A stretch of 64,000 bases of DNA from Massilia atriviolacea (GTDB lineage: Bacteria; Pseudomonadota; Gammaproteobacteria; Burkholderiales; Burkholderiaceae_D): assembly GCF_003953935.1 (NCBI RefSeq), contig NZ_RXLQ01000006.1, positions 186,001 through 250,000 on the forward strand, given 5' to 3'. Position numbers and translations under genes: made by a program. Below the pieces are notes generated by a model, which saw only the letters and a list, made by a program, of their open reading frames with translations, made no database searches and had not been told where the DNA came from. Positions 15,350 to 23,446 of this stretch are shown one piece after another. The number at the start of each line of letters is the position of its first letter. Within the stretch, counting starts at the first letter, position 1.

Positions 15350-16291
15350 CTAACTGGCAACGGCCGCGTTCTGGGCCCGCCAGCGCGCCACCGAGGTATC
15401 GATGTCGTCCAGGTCGAGCACGCAGTTCGGACCGAGCTGGCGCCGCGCCAGCGCCGCGCAACTGCCGCCGGCCCACACCTGCACGTGCGGGCCCAGGCGG
15501 CTTTGCAGCTCGATCACATTGTCGACCGCCGCGCGCGGCGACATCACGCTCGAAAACGACAGCGCCACGATGTCGGCGCGCTGCACCCGCGCCGCTTCGA
15601 CGATGTCGGCCAGCGGGGTCTGCACGCCGAGCGAGACGCAGTGCGCCCCTTCCAGCGCGAACAGCGCTTCGGCCATCAGCAGGCCCAGGCCGTGGCGCTC
15701 CTGGGGCACGGTGGTGAGCAGGATGCGCGGGATGGCATCGGCATGGTTGACCTGCTGGTTGGCCGCGAAGATCGCATTGCGCATCACGCTTTGCAGCAGT
15801 TCGGCGAACAGGTGTTCTTCGAAAATGGCCAGGCCGCCGGCGGCCCAGGTGTCGCCCACCAGGGTGGTCAGCGGCGCCACCACTTCCAGCACGAAGCGGC
15901 GCAGGCCCAGCTGCAGCAGGGACTGCGCCATTTTCAGGCGCAGCTCGTGCATCTGGTGCGCCTTGATCATGGCCAGGCACTGGCGCAGCAGCGGATCGTC
16001 GGCGTCGCCGGCGATCGAGCCGGTGCCGGACTTGCTGGCCATGCTGTTCAGCTCATCCGTACTCAACTGCATGATCTTGCCGGGGCGGTAGCCCATGTCG
16101 AGCAGGCGCTTGACCACGCGCAGGCGCGCCACCTGCTCGAACGGATACAGGCGCTCGCCGTTGGCGTCGCGCTCGGGCTGGGGAAAGTTGTAGCGCCGCT
16201 CCCACACGCGCAGGGTTTCCTTGGGGACGCCGGTCTCCCGTTCGACGTCGCTGATGCTGCTGAAGACGGCAGTGGTCGGTGCTTGGCTCAT
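15350..16291 (-). CDS. MerR-family regulator with B12-binding domain (CarH/LitR-like)
   Basis: The 313-residue protein has an N-terminal MerR winged helix-turn-helix (VERETGVPKETLRVWERRY, residues 16-34) and a C-terminal cobalamin-binding module. It contains the photoreceptor-type motif W149-x9-E159-H160 and E198-x-H200-x-x-G203, matching the W-x9-EH and (D/E)xHxxG signatures of CarH/LitR proteins. In that family adenosylcobalamin in the dark makes a DNA-bound tetramer, and light breaks it and derepresses target genes. It is divergent from a membrane-lipid operon whose promoter carries two TTTGTC-N3-GACAAA palindromes, its probable operators. An in-frame GTG at 16303 is an alternative start; neither has a clear ribosome binding site. 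Light response is inferred. Confidence 0.88.
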   Translation of the reverse strand: MSQAPTTAVFSSISDVERETGVPKETLRVWERRYNFPQPERDANGERLYPFEQVARLRVVKRLLDMGYRPGKIMQLSTDELNSMASKSGTGSIAGDADDPLLRQCLAMIKAHQMHELRLKMAQSLLQLGLRRFVLEVVAPLTTLVGDTWAAGGLAIFEEHLFAELLQSVMRNAIFAANQQVNHADAIPRILLTTVPQERHGLGLLMAEALFALEGAHCVSLGVQTPLADIVEAARVQRADIVALSFSSVMSPRAAVDNVIELQSRLGPHVQVWAGGSCAALARRQLGPNCVLDLDDIDTSVARWRAQNAAVAS

Positions 16292-16495
16292 TGTCGCATT
16301 CACGGTTTGTTCAGGACATCATCCTGATTGTAAGTTGAAATCATAGGGAGAAAACTACTCTTTGTATCAGCTTGTTTCGGCGGCGCTCCCCGAGGGCGAC
16401 ATCATGCCATGCCTCGGGAGGTGCACGCTTCGCCATTCATCGCGTTTCTTGAATCCAATTTCATACCCATGACGTATAAATCCATGGTGACCCGT

Positions 16496-16510
16496 TTTGT
16501 CATGGACAAA
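16496..16510. promoter_or_regulatory. Palindromic operator 1 of the lipid operon
   Basis: TTTGTC ATG GACAAA, a perfect 6-bp inverted repeat immediately upstream of the TTGACA -35 hexamer. It matches a second palindrome centred 62 bp downstream. Likely bound by the divergent MerR/B12 protein; that assignment is inference from position. Confidence 0.65.
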
Positions 16511-16513
16511 TCG

Positions 16514-16542
16514 TTGACAGATTCCATTATTTCACGGATTAT
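16514..16542 (+). promoter_or_regulatory. Candidate promoter of the lipid-modification operon
   Basis: TTGACA, 17 bases, GATTAT. The -35 is perfect and the -10 matches 4 of 6. It lies between the two palindromes at 16496 and 16558, the arrangement expected for a repressed promoter, and gives a leader of roughly 45 bases. Confidence 0.55.
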
Positions 16543-16557
16543 CCGTCAGGTGGTGAA

Positions 16558-16572
16558 TTTGTCCTGGACAAA
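16558..16572. promoter_or_regulatory. Palindromic operator 2 of the lipid operon
   Basis: TTTGTC CTG GACAAA, the same arms as operator 1, located just downstream of the expected transcription start and 22 bases before the first start codon. Binding here would block initiation or early elongation. Confidence 0.65.
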
Positions 16573-16594
16573 ACAAAGAAAACAGGTGGATCTG

Positions 16595-17893
16595 ATGAAA
16601 ATAGCAGTGATCGGGGCGGGGATTTCGGGTTTGTCGTGCGCCTACAAGCTTGTCCATGGCGGGGCGGACGTGACCCTGTACGAGGCGGGCGCTTACTTCG
16701 GCGGCCACAGCAACACGGTGGACGTCACCCTGGACGGCGTCACGCACGGGGTGGACACGGGCTTTTTGGTGTTCAACGAGCGCACCTACCCCAACCTGAT
16801 CGCCCTGTTCGCCGAGCTGGGCGTGGAAACGGCGCCCAGCGACATGTCGTTTTCGGTCAAGCTGCCGCTCGCGCAGGAAGCCGGCGCGCGCGTGCTGGAA
16901 TGGGCCGGCAGCAACCTCGATACCCTGTTCGCCCAGCGCGGCAACCTGCTGCGCCCGCGCTTTTTGCGCATGGTGCGCGACATCCTGCGCTTCAACCGCC
17001 ACGCCACCGGCCTGGCCACCGCCCAGCGCATGCCCGCCATCTCGCTCGGCGAATTCCTCGACCAGCACCATTACAGCGAGCAGTTCCGCGCCTGGTACCT
17101 GCTGCCGATGGCCGCCTGCATCTGGTCGTGCCCCTCGGACCAGATGCTGGCCTTCCCGGTGGCGACCTTCATCCGCTTCTGCCACAACCACGGCCTGCTG
17201 CAAGTGAGCGACCGGCCGCAGTGGAACACCGTGCGCGGCGGCTCGCGCAACTATGTCGAGAAGCTGCTGGCGGCGATTCCCCAGCGCCGCCTGGGCACGC
17301 CGGTGACGGCGGTCACGCGCCATCCGGCCGGCGGCGCGCGCTCGGTGCGGGTCGATACCGCGCATGACACCGAACAGTTCGACCACGTGGTCATGGCCTG
17401 CCACAGCGACCAGTCGCTGGCGCTGCTCGCGGACGCGCGCGCCGACGAGCGCTCGGTGCTGGCGGCGGTGCGCTACCAGCCCAACCGCGCCGTGCTGCAC
17501 ACCGACGCCAGCTGCCTGCCGCGCAGCCGCAAGGCCTGGTCGGCCTGGAATTACCAGAGCACGGCGTCGGCCACGCCGCAGGTGTGCGTGCACTACCTGC
17601 TCAACCAGTTGCAGCCGCTGCCTTTCAAGACGCCGGTGATCGTCTCGCTCAATCCGATCGACGAACCGAACCGCGCGCGCGTGATCCGGTCGTTCGACTA
17701 CGCGCACCCGGTGTTCGACGATGGCGCCGTGGCCGCGCAGGCGCGCCTGGCCGGCTTCCAGGGGCAGCAGAACACCTGGTTCGCCGGGGCCTGGACCGGC
17801 TACGGCTTCCATGAAGATGGCCTCAAGTCCGGCCTGGCCGCCGCCGCCGCCTTGACGCGCCTGATGCGGGGACAACAGCATGCAGCGGCCTGA
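16595..17893 (+). CDS. FAD-dependent oxidoreductase (COG2907-type, amine-oxidase-like)
   Basis: The 432-residue flavoprotein begins with a Rossmann dinucleotide motif, IGAGISGLSCAY, and has a C-terminal FAD-contact segment (GAWTGYGFHEDGLKSG). It resembles phytoene-desaturase/amine-oxidase-fold proteins annotated as NAD/FAD-binding protein. The substrate is not known from sequence; next to a fatty-acid-modifying methyltransferase I infer a desaturation or oxidation of lipid acyl chains. The frame is open from 16409, but the ATG at 16595 has AGGTGG upstream and directly starts the FAD motif. The upstream part lies in promoter and operator DNA. It is first in an eight-gene operon and overlaps DUF1365 by 14 bases. 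Confidence 0.88.
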   Translation: MKIAVIGAGISGLSCAYKLVHGGADVTLYEAGAYFGGHSNTVDVTLDGVTHGVDTGFLVFNERTYPNLIALFAELGVETAPSDMSFSVKLPLAQEAGARVLEWAGSNLDTLFAQRGNLLRPRFLRMVRDILRFNRHATGLATAQRMPAISLGEFLDQHHYSEQFRAWYLLPMAACIWSCPSDQMLAFPVATFIRFCHNHGLLQVSDRPQWNTVRGGSRNYVEKLLAAIPQRRLGTPVTAVTRHPAGGARSVRVDTAHDTEQFDHVVMACHSDQSLALLADARADERSVLAAVRYQPNRAVLHTDASCLPRSRKAWSAWNYQSTASATPQVCVHYLLNQLQPLPFKTPVIVSLNPIDEPNRARVIRSFDYAHPVFDDGAVAAQARLAGFQGQQNTWFAGAWTGYGFHEDGLKSGLAAAAALTRLMRGQQHAAA

Positions 17894-18686
17894 CCCGGCG
17901 CCCGAGCCACGCGCGCAGCTGTGCTTCGGCCAGGTGCGCCACACGCGCCTGCGGCCCGTGGTCAACGCCTTCGCCTACGCCACCTATTACGTGCGCCTGC
18001 CGCTGCGCGCCATCGGCACGCAGCGCTTCGGCTGCGCCCTGTTCTCGCGCAACCGCTTCAACCTGCTCTCGTTTGCCGACGCCGACCATGGCGACGGCAA
18101 GCAGCCGCTGGTCGACTGGATCGACGCCCTGCTGTTGCGCGAAGGCATCACCGATGCCGATGGCGAGGTCTGGCTGCAAACCATGCCGCGCGTGCTCGGC
18201 TACGTGTTCAATCCGGTTTCGTTCTGGTTTTGCCACCGCCGCGACGGCGCCCTGCGCGCGCTGGTGTGCGACGTGCGCAATACCTTCGGCGAGCGCCACT
18301 TCTATTTGCTCGATACCGGCGCCGACATCGCCAACGGCCAGGAACTGCGTGCGCGCAAGGTGTTCCATGTCTCGCCCTTCTGCCAAGTGCAGGGCGGCTA
18401 CCGCTTCCGCTTCACGCACCTGCTGCGCATGAACGATGGCCGGGCCCAGGACAGCACGCTGGCCTGCATCGACTACGACGACGCCGACGGTCCGCTGCTG
18501 CAGACGAGCCTGTCCGGCAATGCGGTGCCGATCACTTCGGGCAGCGTCGCCCGCGCGTTCTTCGGCTTTCCGCTGATGACGGCCGGCGTGGTGGCGCGCA
18601 TCCATCTGCAAGCGCTGCGCCTGTGGCTGCGCCGCGTTCCCTTCTTTTCCAAACCGACTCCACCCCAACATAAGGTAACCCGATGA
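17880..18686 (+). CDS. DUF1365 family protein
   Basis: A 268-residue protein of the DUF1365 (COG3496) family, recognisable by VRHTRLRPVVNAFAY near the start, NPVSFWFCHR in the middle and KVFHVSPF. The biochemical role is unknown. The gene is almost always found beside COG2907 oxidoreductases and cyclopropane-synthase-like enzymes, including in singlet-oxygen-response loci of photosynthetic alphaproteobacteria. It overlaps the preceding stop by 14 bases and the next start by 4 bases, so it is part of one translationally coupled operon. Confidence 0.88.
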   Translation: MQRPDPAPEPRAQLCFGQVRHTRLRPVVNAFAYATYYVRLPLRAIGTQRFGCALFSRNRFNLLSFADADHGDGKQPLVDWIDALLLREGITDADGEVWLQTMPRVLGYVFNPVSFWFCHRRDGALRALVCDVRNTFGERHFYLLDTGADIANGQELRARKVFHVSPFCQVQGGYRFRFTHLLRMNDGRAQDSTLACIDYDDADGPLLQTSLSGNAVPITSGSVARAFFGFPLMTAGVVARIHLQALRLWLRRVPFFSKPTPPQHKVTR

Positions 18687-19915
18687 GCTCCCAATCCCTG
18701 CCATCGCTCGTTCCGGCCGCGCCCCGTCTTGGCGCCGCCACGCCCGCGCCATCGTCCGCCAGGCTCATTCTCACGCTGCTGGAGAAGCTCAAGCACGGCG
18801 CGCTGACCCTGATCACCCCGGACGGCGCCCAGCGCCATTTCGGCGACGCGTCGGTGCCGGTGATCCTGGAGCTGAATAACTGGAACTGCTTTGCGGCCGC
18901 CATGCGCTCGGGCGACATCGGCTTTGCCGAAACCTATATCGCGGGCGACTGGCAGACCAACAACCTGACCGGCCTGATCGCGCTGCTGGCGCGCAACCGC
19001 GCCGCCATCGAAACGCTGGTCTACGGCAGCTGGTGGGGCAGCCTGGCCTACCGCATCAAGCATCTCCTGAACCGCAACAGCAAGGCCGGCAGCCGCAAGA
19101 ACATCCATGCCCATTACGACATCGGCAACGCGTTCTACCAGCTGTGGCTGGATCCGTCGATGACCTATTCGAGCGCCCTGTATACGGAAGCGAGCGGGCG
19201 CGACCTGGAACAGGCGCAACAGGCCAAGTACCGCAGCATCCTGCGCGAGCTGGCGCTGTCGCCCGGCCAGAAGGTGCTGGAAATCGGCTGCGGCTGGGGA
19301 GGATTCGCCGAACTGGCCGCGCGCGACGGCGGGGTGCATGTGACCGGCCTGACCCTGTCCGAGCAGCAGCTGGCCTACGCCAGGGCGCGCATGGAAAAGG
19401 CCGGCCTGCTTGACAAAACCGACCTGCGCCTGTGCGACTACCGCGACAGCGCCGGCCAGTACGACGCGATCGCCTCGATCGAGATGTTCGAAGCCGTGGG
19501 CGAGAGCTACTGGCCGAGCTACTTCGAGTGCCTGGCGCGCAACCTGAAGCCGGGCGGGCGCGCCTGCATCCAGACCATCGTCATCGCCGACGAACTGTTC
19601 GAGCGCTATCGCAAGGGGACGGACTTCATCCAGCAGTTCATCTTCCCGGGCGGGATGCTGCCGTCGCCATCGGCCTTCGAGCGCATGGCCTTCGAACATG
19701 GCCTGGCGGTGACCAACGAATACCGCTTCGGCATCGACTACGCCGACACCCTGGTCGAATGGCGCCAGGCCTTCCACGCGCGCCTGGACGAGGTGCGCGC
19801 GCAGGGCTTCGACGAGCGCTTCATCCGCACCTGGGAGTTCTACCTGTGCTACTGCGAGGCCGCCTTCCGTGAAAAGAACACGGACGTCATGCACTTCACC
19901 CTGACGAAAGCCTGA
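18683..19915 (+). CDS. Cyclopropane-fatty-acyl-phospholipid synthase family methyltransferase
   Basis: The 410-residue protein is a class I SAM-dependent methyltransferase that in this family modifies double bonds of membrane phospholipid acyl chains (cyclopropanation or methylation). The SAM site EIGCGWGGFAE is near residue 198, preceded by HYDIGNAFYQLWLDPSMTYS, a diagnostic stretch, and followed by SIEMFEAVGE. It is close in length to E. coli Cfa. The context (COG2907, DUF1365) suggests either cyclopropane lipids or an acyl-methylation step of furan-fatty-acid type; sequence alone does not decide. The start overlaps DUF1365 by four bases. Confidence 0.92.
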   Translation: MSSQSLPSLVPAAPRLGAATPAPSSARLILTLLEKLKHGALTLITPDGAQRHFGDASVPVILELNNWNCFAAAMRSGDIGFAETYIAGDWQTNNLTGLIALLARNRAAIETLVYGSWWGSLAYRIKHLLNRNSKAGSRKNIHAHYDIGNAFYQLWLDPSMTYSSALYTEASGRDLEQAQQAKYRSILRELALSPGQKVLEIGCGWGGFAELAARDGGVHVTGLTLSEQQLAYARARMEKAGLLDKTDLRLCDYRDSAGQYDAIASIEMFEAVGESYWPSYFECLARNLKPGGRACIQTIVIADELFERYRKGTDFIQQFIFPGGMLPSPSAFERMAFEHGLAVTNEYRFGIDYADTLVEWRQAFHARLDEVRAQGFDERFIRTWEFYLCYCEAAFREKNTDVMHFTLTKA

Positions 19916-19916
19916 G

Positions 19917-20447
19917 ATGCGGCGCCGCCAGCTGCTGCTATCGGCCTGCGCCCTGGCCCTGGTCGGCCCGGCCGGCGCGGCCCCCGGCCATATCGACCAG
20001 CACCTGACGCAGGCGCGGGTGGCGGGCAGGGGCACGTTTACCTGGTTCGCTCTGGCCATCTACGACGCCGAACTGTGGGTGGGCGAAAAGGGCTACCGGC
20101 CCGACGCGCCGTTCGTGCTCGACCTGCGCTACGCGCGCAAGCTCGATGGCATCAAGATCGCCGAGGCCAGCGCCGAGCAGATGGAAAAGATCGGCGCCGG
20201 CACGCCGGCCCAGCGCGCCCAGTGGCTGGCCAGGATGAAGACCATCTTCCCCGACGTGAAAGAGGGCACCCATATCAGCGGCGTGTTCCTGCCCGGCGCC
20301 GGCGCCCGTTTCTACCTCGATGGCAAGGCCCTGGCGACGGTCCCCGACCCCGAATTCGCACGCGCGTTTTTCGGCATCTGGCTCGACCCCGCCACCAGCG
20401 CGCGTTCGCTGCGCACGGCCTTGCTCAAAGACGCCGCGCCGCGATGA
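19917..20447 (+). CDS. Chalcone-isomerase-like exported protein
   Basis: The 176-residue protein has a signal peptide (RRRQLLLSACALALVGPAGA) and resembles the chalcone-isomerase-fold family of bacterial periplasmic proteins (TFTWFALAIYDAELWV, a strongly conserved block). In bacteria these are not flavonoid enzymes; some relatives of the fold bind fatty acids, so a lipid-binding role is plausible here. The start lies one base after the methyltransferase stop, and its stop overlaps the next ATG by four bases. Confidence 0.78.
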   Translation: MRRRQLLLSACALALVGPAGAAPGHIDQHLTQARVAGRGTFTWFALAIYDAELWVGEKGYRPDAPFVLDLRYARKLDGIKIAEASAEQMEKIGAGTPAQRAQWLARMKTIFPDVKEGTHISGVFLPGAGARFYLDGKALATVPDPEFARAFFGIWLDPATSARSLRTALLKDAAPR

Positions 20448-21679
20448 GCCGCCTGTCGCTGGCGAAGCTGCTCGCGTACGGCGTGTTCGGGCTGCCGCTG
20501 GCGATGGTCGCCTTGCCGATCTATGTGTACCTGCCCCAGTTTTACGCCGAGCGCGCCGGCCTGTCGCTGGCGCTGATCGGCACCGTGCTGCTGGCCGCGC
20601 GCGTGGCCGCCGCCTTCATCGACCCGCTGCTCGGCTGGTGGATCGAGCGCGGGCAGGGCGCCTATCCACGTTACGTGGGGCTGGCGCTGCCGCTGCTGCT
20701 GGCCGGCTTCGTGGCGCTGTTCCATCCGCCCGCCCTTGGCAGCCTGGCGACCATGGCCTGGTTTCTCGGCACGCTGATGCTGGTCTACCTGGGCTTCAGC
20801 ATCGCCACCATCGCGCACCAGAGCTGGGGCGCGGCCCTGACCCAGGCGCCGCAGGAGCGCGCACGCGTGACCGGCGTGCGCGAAGCCTGCGGCCTGGCCG
20901 GCGTGGTGCTGGCGGCGGCGGTGACCGGCGCGGCCGGCTACGACGCCCTGAGCATCGCCTTTGGCGCCACCCTGGCGGCGGGCGGCGCGCTGCTGCTGCT
21001 GCGTGCTCCGCGTCCGCTGGTGAACCTTGCGGCCGCAGCGCGGCCCGGCTGGCGCGCCATGGCCGCGCCGTTTCGCGAAGCGCCGTTCCGCTCCCTGTTC
21101 GCGGTGTTGATCGTGAACGGCATCGCTTCATCGATCCCGGCCACGCTGTTCCTGTTTTTTGCGTCCGACCGGCTGCGACTGGGCGCCCTGTCGGCCCTGT
21201 TCCTGATCGTTTATTTCGCCGCGGCGGCGTGCTCGATGCCGCTGTGGATCGCCGCCGCGGCCCGCTTCGGCGAAGCGCGCGCCTGGGCCGGCGCCATGCT
21301 TCTGGCGGCCGCCGTGTTCGTCTGGGCCTATTGGCTGGGGGCGGGCGCCAGCATGGCCTTCGGCCTGATCTGCCTGCTCTCCGGACTGGCGCTGGGCGCC
21401 GACCTGGCGCTGCCGCCGGCGCTGCTGGCCGGCGTGATCGCCGGCGCCGGCCACGCGGGCGGGCGCGAAGCGGCTTATTTCGGCGTGTGGAACTGGGGCG
21501 TGCAAATGACCCTGGCGCTGGCCGCCGGCATCGCCCTGCCGCTGCTGGCGTGGCTCGGCTACGTGCCCGGCGCCGGCGGCGGCACCGGCGCGCTGGCGGC
21601 GGCCTACGCGCTGCTGCCGTGCGCCCTCAAATTGCTGGCCGCCGCCATGTTGTGGCGCGCGCCGCTTCGTCATTGTTAA
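20444..21679 (+). CDS. MFS transporter, GPH sugar:cation-symporter-like
   Basis: The 411-residue membrane protein has about 12 hydrophobic segments and resembles the MFS_2/GPH family (LLAARVAAAFIDPLLGWW near residue 45 is the family signature region). The substrate is unknown; MFS_2 includes lysophospholipid carriers as well as sugar symporters, and the neighbours point to a lipid-related cargo. I chose the ATG overlapping the previous stop (ATGA). The open frame upstream is the shadow of the chalcone-isomerase-like gene. Confidence 0.82.
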   Translation: MSRLSLAKLLAYGVFGLPLAMVALPIYVYLPQFYAERAGLSLALIGTVLLAARVAAAFIDPLLGWWIERGQGAYPRYVGLALPLLLAGFVALFHPPALGSLATMAWFLGTLMLVYLGFSIATIAHQSWGAALTQAPQERARVTGVREACGLAGVVLAAAVTGAAGYDALSIAFGATLAAGGALLLLRAPRPLVNLAAAARPGWRAMAAPFREAPFRSLFAVLIVNGIASSIPATLFLFFASDRLRLGALSALFLIVYFAAAACSMPLWIAAAARFGEARAWAGAMLLAAAVFVWAYWLGAGASMAFGLICLLSGLALGADLALPPALLAGVIAGAGHAGGREAAYFGVWNWGVQMTLALAAGIALPLLAWLGYVPGAGGGTGALAAAYALLPCALKLLAAAMLWRAPLRHC

Positions 21680-21696
21680 CCGAGAAGGAAAGTCCC

Positions 21697-22251
21697 ATGA
21701 AACTGCACAAGATCTTTGCCGCCGGCGCGCTGGCGCTGGCCGTCGCCGGCTGCAGCACGCCCACGCCGGAAACCTACGCCAAACAGACGCCGGCGCTCGA
21801 CATCACCAGGTACTTCAACGGCACGCTGGACGCGCACGGCATGTTCCAGGACCGCTCCGGTGAAGTCATCAAGCGCTTCGTGGTGCAGATGCGCTGCACC
21901 TGGAACGGCGATACGGGCGTGCTCGATGAAGATTTCGTGTATGCGGACGGCACGCGCCAGAAGCGCGTCTGGACCCTGACCCGCACCGGGCCCGACACCT
22001 TCAGCGCCACCGCGGCCGACGTGGTCGGTACCGCGCGCGGCACGGTGTCGGGCAATGCGCTGCGCTGGCAGTACGTGCTGGCGCTGCCGGTCGACGGCAA
22101 GGTGATCAATATGGACATGGACGACTGGATGTTCCTGATCGACGACAAGGTCATGCTGAACCGCACGGCGATGAGCAAGTTCGGCGTGAACCTGGGCAGC
22201 GTGACGCTGTCGTTCACCAAGCGGTCCGCCACGGGCGCGGCGCCGCAATGA
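21697..22251 (+). CDS. DUF3833 lipoprotein
   Basis: The 184-residue protein has a lipoprotein signal peptide with lipobox VAGCS (Cys19). The DUF3833-like body contains ITRYFNGTLDAHGMFQDRSG, a lipocalin-like pattern. It is probably anchored in the outer membrane facing the periplasm and may bind or move lipid. GAGAAGGAAAG provides a good ribosome binding site. It ends overlapping the SDR start by four bases. Confidence 0.85.
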   Translation: MKLHKIFAAGALALAVAGCSTPTPETYAKQTPALDITRYFNGTLDAHGMFQDRSGEVIKRFVVQMRCTWNGDTGVLDEDFVYADGTRQKRVWTLTRTGPDTFSATAADVVGTARGTVSGNALRWQYVLALPVDGKVINMDMDDWMFLIDDKVMLNRTAMSKFGVNLGSVTLSFTKRSATGAAPQ

Positions 22252-23015
22252 ACCCGCGCATCGAGGAGTGGCGCGGGCGGCGCGTGTGGATGATCGGGGC
22301 GTCGACCGGGATCGGCGAAGCGGCCGCGCATCTGCTGCTCGACCTGGGCGCGCGCGTGGCGTTTTCCGCGCGCAGCGCCGGCAAGCTGGAACAGACGGTG
22401 GCGGGCGAGCCGCGCGCGCTGGCGCTGGCGCTCGATGTCACCGACCGCGCCAGCGTGGACAAGGCGTGCCAGCGCATCGTGGCCGAGTGGGGCGGGATCG
22501 ACCTGGTGCTGATCGTCGCCGGCGGCTACAACGAGATGCGCGCCGATGCGATCGACCTGGCGGCGGCCAACGCGATGATCGACCTGAACCTGCGCGGCGC
22601 CTTCAACTGCCTCGACGTGGCGCTGCCGCTGCTGCTCAGGCAGGGCGCGGGCGGGATCGGCATCGTCGCCTCGGTGGCCGGCTACGGCGGCCTGCCCAAG
22701 GCGCTGGTGTACGGGCCGACCAAGGCGGCGCTGATCAACCTGACCGAGTCGCTGTACCTCGATCTGCGCGCGCGCGGGATCGCGGTGTACCAGATCAATC
22801 CGGGCTTCGTCGATACGCCGCTCACCGCCAGCAACGACTTCAAGATGCCGGCCCTGATGAGCGCCGCCGACGCCGCGTATGCGATGGTGGACGGGATCGA
22901 GCGCGGCCAATTCCATATTCATTTTCCCAAGCGCTTCACCAACAGCCTGCGGCTGGCGCGCCTGCTGCCGTACCGGCTGTACTTCTGGCTGATCCACAAG
23001 GTGACCGGCTTATGA
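22248..23015 (+). CDS. Short-chain dehydrogenase/reductase (SDR)
   Basis: The 255-residue classical SDR has the NAD(P) motif GASTGIG (residues 18-24), a catalytic Ser in the SVAGYGG strand and YGPTK (YxxxK), and ends in a hydrophobic, basic tail. It reduces or oxidises a carbonyl/alcohol of unknown substrate. It is coupled to both neighbours by four-base overlaps, so it belongs to the same lipid-modification operon. Confidence 0.88.
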   Translation: MNPRIEEWRGRRVWMIGASTGIGEAAAHLLLDLGARVAFSARSAGKLEQTVAGEPRALALALDVTDRASVDKACQRIVAEWGGIDLVLIVAGGYNEMRADAIDLAAANAMIDLNLRGAFNCLDVALPLLLRQGAGGIGIVASVAGYGGLPKALVYGPTKAALINLTESLYLDLRARGIAVYQINPGFVDTPLTASNDFKMPALMSAADAAYAMVDGIERGQFHIHFPKRFTNSLRLARLLPYRLYFWLIHKVTGL

Positions 23016-23446
23016 ACCGCGCGCCCGAACTGGCACGGCTGGTGCGCTTTTACGAAGGCATCGAGCGGGCGTCGCTGCGCGCCCGGCTGGAGCTGATCTA
23101 CGCGTCCGACGCGCAGTTCAAGGATCCGTTCAACGAGGTGCGCGGGGTCGAAGCGATCGTGCGCATCTTCCAGCATATGTTCGAGCAGGTCGACCAGCCG
23201 CGGTTTGTGGTGACCTCGACCGTGCTGCAGGGCGACGATGCCTTCCTGACATGGGAATTCCTGTTCCGGATGAAGCGCTTTTCCGGCGAAGCGCAATGCA
23301 TTCGCGGCGCCACCCACATCCGCTTCGATACGAACGGGGCGGTCATGACGCACCGCGATTATTGGGATGCCGCCGAGGAGCTTTATGAGAAGCTGCCGAT
23401 AATAGGAAGCGTGATGCGCTGGCTCAAACGAAGGGCAAATAAATAG
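23012..23446 (+). CDS. SnoaL/NTF2-like protein
   Basis: The 144-residue protein of the cone-shaped NTF2/SnoaL fold, recognised by the pattern FYEGIE...LIYASDAQFKDPFNEVRG and the closing HRDYWDAAEELYEKLP. The fold hosts small isomerases, cyclases and ligand-binding proteins; the activity here is unknown. It is the last gene of the eight-gene operon, overlapping the SDR by four bases. No terminator hairpin follows immediately. Confidence 0.82.
   Translation: MNRAPELARLVRFYEGIERASLRARLELIYASDAQFKDPFNEVRGVEAIVRIFQHMFEQVDQPRFVVTSTVLQGDDAFLTWEFLFRMKRFSGEAQCIRGATHIRFDTNGAVMTHRDYWDAAEELYEKLPIIGSVMRWLKRRANK

Follow-up and report, generated by a model that had tools for sequence, protein, structure and literature searches.

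A predicted B12-type LitR repressor opposite a putative furan fatty acid operon in Massilia atriviolacea

We analyzed a 64,000-nucleotide stretch of the Massilia atriviolacea genome (positions 186,001 to 250,000 of contig NZ_RXLQ01000006.1; hereafter the window), in which the gene for a LitR/CarH-family regulator lies opposite eight plus-strand genes (16595-23446) that begin with ufaD-, ufaO-, and ufaM-like genes (Table 1). The eight genes follow one another with gaps of -14, -4, +1, -4, 17, -4, and -4 bp (the fifth measured from the ATG of the DUF3833 gene at 21697), a tight packing with overlaps, as in one transcript. An initial annotation made from the sequence alone had described a MerR protein with the cobalamin motifs W-x9-EH and ExHxxG facing an eight-gene operon, as well as two palindromes with identical arms, 62 bp apart, flanking a TTGACA promoter. 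The Pfam domains, motifs, and open frames bear out the first description, and the site coordinates and a promoter scan agree with the second. From these and the following comparisons we make the well-supported prediction that the regulator is a LitR repressor of the vitamin B12 type, that it represses an operon for furan fatty acids, and that this arrangement recurs in Burkholderiales.

Table 1 Features of the regulator-ufa locus, with positions in the window (aa, amino acids)
Feature	Position	Strand	Basis and remarks
LitR/CarH-family MerR regulator	15350..16303	minus	317 aa, GTG start; alternative ATG at 16291; cobalamin-binding domain complete
Third, degenerate operator-like site, TTTGTTCAGGACATC	16306..16320		3 mismatches; abuts regulator start codon
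Predicted operator 1, TTTGTC-ATG-GACAAA, TTTGTCATGGACAAA	16496..16510		Ends 3 bp before -35 hexamer
Predicted sigma-70 promoter of ufa operon, TTGACA-17-GATTAT	16514..16542	plus	10/12 matches; between operators
Predicted operator 2, TTTGTC-CTG-GACAAA, TTTGTCCTGGACAAA	16558..16572		Starts 15 bp after -10 hexamer
ufaD-like oxidoreductase dependent on flavin adenine dinucleotide (FAD)	16595..17893	plus	432 aa; Pfam Amino_oxidase/NAD_binding_8; gene order as RPA2571-2569; COG2907 in the initial annotation
ufaO-like DUF1365 protein	17880..18686	plus	268 aa; Pfam DUF1365, 3.5e-79
ufaM-like S-adenosylmethionine-dependent fatty acyl methyltransferase	18683..19915	plus	410 aa; Pfam CMAS; 6bqc alignment
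Chalcone-isomerase-like protein (Chalcone_3)	19917..20447	plus	176 aa; Pfam
MFS_2 transporter	20444..21679	plus	411 aa; Pfam
DUF3833 lipoprotein-like protein	21697..22251	plus	Pfam; ATG at 21697; AGC resembles a lipobox, by eye
Short-chain dehydrogenase/reductase (SDR)	22248..23015	plus	255 aa; Pfam
SnoaL_2-like protein	23012..23446	plus	144 aa; Pfam

Pfam recognizes MerR_1, B12-binding_2, and B12-binding domains in the regulator, and the three parts characteristic of the family, an N-terminal MerR domain, a C-terminal helical bundle, and a Rossmann B12 domain, are all present. The motifs that ligate adenosylcobalamin (AdoCbl) are intact, occurring as WAAGGLAIFEEH (W-x9-EH) and ERHGLG (ExHxxG). 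The SignatureFinder motif set, as given in the available excerpts of PMC11796333, consists of GxxW, EH, GxxH, and GxxxP; by eye, the regulator contains GDTW, EH, and GVQTP, and its GxxH position reads QERH. The domain order, AdoCbl ligand residues, and fold resemble those of CarH and the class I LitR proteins, the comparison being with the Thermus thermophilus protein (TtCarH) only. Against the CarH equivalog model (NCBIfam NF052513), the regulator scores 117.2 bits, below the cutoff of 400 bits, and we therefore class it as a CarH/LitR relative rather than as CarH proper. Both cobalamin adenosyltransferase families are present, as judged from sequence. In a FastTree tree that has 21 open forks and long branches and that we read only for this grouping, L175 and L177, both class II-like, and L200, of another class, fall outside the group of B12-type regulators. 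One genome of the same genus (G011) carries, besides the motif-bearing copy next to ufa (L056), a second LitR-like paralogue in which both B12 motifs are lost (L097).

The two predicted operators share identical six-base arms and are separated by 62 bp, and operator 2 can also be read as seven-base arms around one base. The promoter scan returned 4 promoter-like sites in 8.5 kb, compared with a mean of 1.0 in shuffled sequences; judging from the position of the predicted promoter, operator 2 would sit just after the transcription start. In the 7,355,158-base genome, the two promoter-flanking sites are the only exact matches to the operator, whereas matches with at most one mismatch occur in 12 places, compared with 3 for a backward control. 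All of the other 10 one-mismatch places overlap open frames of 100 aa or longer, some of which may be spurious in this genome. Three possibly intergenic one-mismatch sites (L004, L006, L008) were considered as members of a wider regulon and found unconvincing, and the sole PF03441 photolyase-family match in the genome (L217) has no operator site within 3.6 kb even at 3 mismatches. For these reasons, we claim no regulon beyond the ufa operon in this genome. The degenerate third site, which the initial annotation did not describe and which is also present with 1 to 3 mismatches in the nearest relatives (L043-L051), could possibly serve autoregulation of the regulator.

To place these features among relatives, we searched 195 genomes of the family, 68 of which carry a relative of the regulator at E <= 1e-20, and examined 60 of the 72 listed matches besides that of the window. 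A COG2907-like gene is present at 37 of these 60 loci, and the full COG2907-DUF1365-Cfa set, which the initial annotation had proposed to look for beside the regulator, is divergent from it at 35. A second scan contributed 80 named loci, the best 80 of 570, most of which have titles pointing to Burkholderiales (Massilia, Duganella, Janthinobacterium, Noviherbaspirillum, Polynucleobacter, Rubrivivax, and others). The two sets overlap partly (e.g., L057 and L218), and the counts ignore kinship. Upstream of the regulator, a site with at most one mismatch occurs in 58 of the 80 named loci (the backward pattern gives 1, and shuffles average 0.06), and a pair of operators spaced 58 to 66 bp apart occurs in 24, versus 0 in both controls (the backward pattern and 50 mononucleotide shuffles, which cover these stricter pairs). 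A ufaO gene lies downstream in 52 named loci, 9 loci have both the pair and ufaO, and Janthinobacterium loci (such as L236, L237, L240, and L241) combine one site with a ufa operon. Across both sets we collected 70 distinct pair sequences under a looser definition than that tested against shuffles (each site with at most 3 mismatches, together at most 5), and their spacing is 62 bp in 41, 63 bp in 19, 64 bp in 6, 59 bp in 2, and 60 and 65 bp in 1 each. In 47 of the 70, the best TTGACA match starts 3 bp beyond site 1, and 46 of these match at least 4 of the 6 bases. Taken together, the twin 15-bp operators are not a product of chance.

The identity of the first three genes bears on what the operon makes. 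According to the available excerpts of PMC7380195, homologues of UfaM, UfaD, and UfaO suffice for production of a methylated furan fatty acid in Rhodobacter sphaeroides, UfaO contains DUF1365, and RPA2571-2570-2569 of Rhodopseudomonas palustris are ufaD-ufaO-ufaM. By family and gene order, homologues of UfaD, UfaO, and UfaM open the operon studied here in that same order. Because this matches the order of the proven R. palustris pathway, we favor furan over cyclopropane fatty acids as the predicted product; the lipid-modifying pathway of the initial annotation thus stands, and its choice between cyclopropane and furan is narrowed to furan. The initial annotation read the MFS_2, DUF3833, and chalcone-isomerase-like members as possible lipid carriers and binding proteins. 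The excerpts of PMC7380195 report that single deletions of RSP1087, RSP1088, or RSP1089 leave the fatty acid profile of R. sphaeroides unchanged. The gene order of locus L208 (ufaD-ufaO-MFS_2-DUF3833-SDR), together with protein length, suggests that these three genes are the counterparts of the SDR, DUF3833, and MFS_2 genes. Unlike the ufa sets of Rhodobacter and R. palustris, the set in the window forms one operon that includes Chalcone_3 and SnoaL-like genes and faces a LitR-type regulator.

We consider it probable that the regulator is a dark-state AdoCbl-LitR repressor of a furan fatty acid operon and that light releases it. In the dark, the regulator would bind AdoCbl and oligomerize, and the oligomer would occupy both palindromes, whose separation of 62 bp corresponds to about six helical turns, so that the -35 region of the ufa promoter and the region of its start would both be covered. 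Light would then break the Co-C bond of the cofactor, causing the repressor to leave the DNA. The derepressed operon would make UfaM, UfaD, and UfaO, which would convert unsaturated phospholipid chains to methylated furan fatty acids in advance of photooxidative stress or in the course of it. Two observations weigh against this mechanism. The position of His132, the upper ligand of the light state in TtCarH and part of its light switch, is occupied by Ala154 in the regulator, and none of the 59 motif-bearing regulators has a histidine there; moreover, among the 24 named loci that have the pair, 15 have neither ufaO nor a ufa operon within the fetched stretch. The absence of His132 bears both on the signal, which may be light or B12, and on the release step.

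The same substitution lends some weight to the idea that the repressor reads the supply of AdoCbl or another corrinoid and that light matters little in nature, as the cobalamin site is intact and an H132A variant of TtCarH still binds AdoCbl and is tetrameric in the dark but for the most part does not come apart. We nevertheless regard a B12-level sensor as unlikely. The neighbors of the ufa cluster in the 80 named loci, glutathione peroxidase in 24, FolE2 in 18, and photolyase in only 3 (with the query taken from L217), fit a photooxidative-stress regulon; the Pseudomonas counterpart is light-induced (PMC9758184, in part); and CtMerR, which has an arginine at the His132 position, still photoresponds (PMC11796333, in part). 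A different possibility is that the protein activates transcription in the classical MerR manner, with redox or singlet oxygen as its signal. It does have a MerR DNA-binding domain, and the available excerpts of PMC6852236 name furan fatty acid genes as core targets of the singlet-oxygen-responsive sigmaE-ChrR system of Rhodobacter and relatives. An activator of this kind nonetheless seems highly improbable to us, since the sensor domain is a cobalamin domain, the operator geometry is repressor-like and resembles that of the repressor PmlR2, and the palindromes flank the promoter rather than occupy its spacer, which is 17 bp long. Promoters activated by MerR have spacers of 19 to 20 bp.

Since the operator assignment is itself predicted, and the sites are absent in some loci, one might ask whether the palindromes belong to an unrelated regulator and lie in this neighborhood by coincidence. 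We find this scarcely credible in view of how the sites are distributed. The strict twin pattern occurs in 22 of the 195 family genomes (backward control, 0), all 22 being among the 68 that carry the regulator and none among the 127 others (Fisher P = 6e-12, without correction for kinship), and in 21 of the 22 genomes the twin adjoins the regulator gene. We also chose 20 genomes in which the regulator is not beside ufa, 8 of which have DUF1365 elsewhere. A pair precedes the ufa operon in two of the 8, at 64 bp spacing in G039, where the operon is 13.5 kb from the regulator (L305), and at 63 bp spacing in G023, where it is 380 kb from a regulator copy on the same contig (L306). The pair is absent at the other 6 (L301-L304, L307-L308); the UfaD starts of L301-L304 resemble another subtype, and the genomes of L307-L308 carry only distant regulators. 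Sites within the 500 bp before ufaD were found in 50 of 92 regulator loci versus 0 of 46 ufa loci without a nearby LitR, a group that keeps L166, with a weak MerR match about 8 kb off, and excludes L173 and L174, also without a nearby LitR. Over their whole stretches at one mismatch, L173 has one site about 5.7 kb before ufaD and L174 has none. Among B12-type regulators near ufa outside the family, a one-mismatch site is present in 3 of 5 stretches (L155, L162, L182) and absent from L161 and L167. The product has been the other point of doubt, as the methyltransferase belongs to the Cfa/CMAS family and might yield cyclopropane fatty acids, an outcome we judge very unlikely. In the alignment to 6bqc, S164, A271, and Q297 occupy the positions of Escherichia coli Cfa Cys139, the histidine after Glu239, and His266; Cys139, Glu239, His266, Ile268, and Tyr317 surround a bicarbonate ion and are strictly conserved in nonplant cyclopropane synthases, according to the available excerpts of PMC3132707. 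Two bicarbonate-site residues of E. coli Cfa, Cys139 and His266, are thus replaced, and Ala271 and Gln297 are kept in 173 of the 175 loci with a methyltransferase match (251 scanned), the exceptions being a truncated copy and L202, a copy outside the ufa order with a Cfa-like histidine. These residues were rejected as sole proof, since in the same excerpts some of the three cotton genes for cyclopropane synthases encode Gln in place of His266 and Ser in place of Cys139; the residues support furan chemistry and do not prove it. Gene order also argues for furan. Across the phylum, 153 of 398 searched genomes were positive for DUF1365, and among the 59 loci examined, all have a COG2907-like gene and 56 have the methyltransferase in ufaD-ufaO-ufaM order.

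The predicted light-released LitR repressor has close parallels among known systems. In the available excerpts of PMC9758184, the class II LitR proteins PmlR2 and PplR1 of Pseudomonas mendocina and P. putida are considered incapable of B12 binding and have two operators, one overlapping the -35 and the other following the start, much as predicted here; PmlR2 is a repressor, ufaM is light-induced, and the light-induced cluster (SDR, FAD-oxidoreductase, and ufaM) is comparable to the Massilia operon. Since LitR-linked light control of ufaM has been reported in Pseudomonas, ours is not a wholly new kind of system. However, class II LitR works with a short light-oxygen-voltage (LOV) protein and the operator TGTACA-N12-TGTACA, whereas the Massilia regulator has a complete B12-binding domain and the operator TTTGTC-N3-GACAAA, which places it outside that class. 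Sites of the TGTACA-N12-TGTACA type occur in five ufa loci of other orders of the class (L175, L178, L179, L190, L191). In L159 and L172, ufa loci from the same order as the window, TGTACA-N12-TGTATA or its reverse gives a site that is also of the class II type, and no LitR gene was found in the fetched stretch. The excerpts of PMC9758184 also describe the targets of CarH and class I LitR (T. thermophilus, B. megaterium, M. xanthus) as mainly carotenoid genes, in contrast to the ufa operon here, and the Vibrio class IV LitRs as lacking a B12 domain. RpoE(sigmaE)-ChrR shares the furan fatty acid targets but is a sigma/anti-sigma pair sensing singlet oxygen. The best match to the ChrR model TIGR02451 in the M. 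atriviolacea genome scores 25.9 bits against a cutoff of 124.5, with a Caulobacter control detected, which upholds the initial annotation's view that the regulator class differs from sigmaE/ChrR. PF12973 gave three cupin matches, considered as ChrR candidates and dismissed given the ChrR model score; one of them (L299) reads by eye as a secreted cupin. In Vibrio cholerae, a MerR protein (VCA0056) and ChrR offer another case of MerR-family control of blue-light genes, including phr, and a cfa-like gene is blue-light-induced there; VCA0056 differs in that it is reported to act through reactive oxygen species and is in a predicted operon with phr. We found no report of a B12-type LitR controlling ufa genes among titles and abstract beginnings, a coverage that leaves most subscription papers outside; in the available excerpts of PMC7947762, CarH appears only within a method.

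On a broader scale we propose, tentatively and at somewhat less than even confidence, that these regulators form a distinct Burkholderiales clade of B12 photoreceptor-repressors without His132, which use their own TTTGTC-N3-GACAAA twin operator to make furan fatty acid synthesis light-inducible. For the same lipid operon, they would add a further sensor solution to sigmaE-ChrR and LOV/class II LitR and would leave DNA after photolysis by a different route. If true, this would link a vitamin B12 photoreceptor with a defined pathway of membrane lipids, outside carotenoids, and in different groups of proteobacteria one lipid operon would answer to three different sensors of light or singlet oxygen; furan fatty acids have elsewhere been linked to defense against light-generated oxygen damage. 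The novelty would lie in a B12 sensor without His132 and in its own operator code. The missing histidine offers a natural test of how B12 photoreceptors release DNA without that ligand, and the operator and spacing rule would make the regulator's targets predictable across Burkholderiales.

Some twin sites have other surroundings. The one strict twin that does not adjoin a regulator gene (L135, G151:C1:3354471-3354545) precedes the gene of a methyl-accepting chemotaxis protein, with the regulator about 1 Mb distant, and this chemoreceptor could possibly be under light or B12 control. Loci of Duganella, Pseudoduganella, and Rugamonas (L220, L221, L224, L229, L235, and similar) have twin sites at 62 bp and no ufa genes in the stretch; a porin-looking gene, judged by its MKKSLI-type signal start only, begins 364 to 1300 bp away. 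At several Burkholderiales loci (L075, L246, L252, and others), the interval between the regulator and ufaD holds genes for glutathione peroxidase and FolE2.

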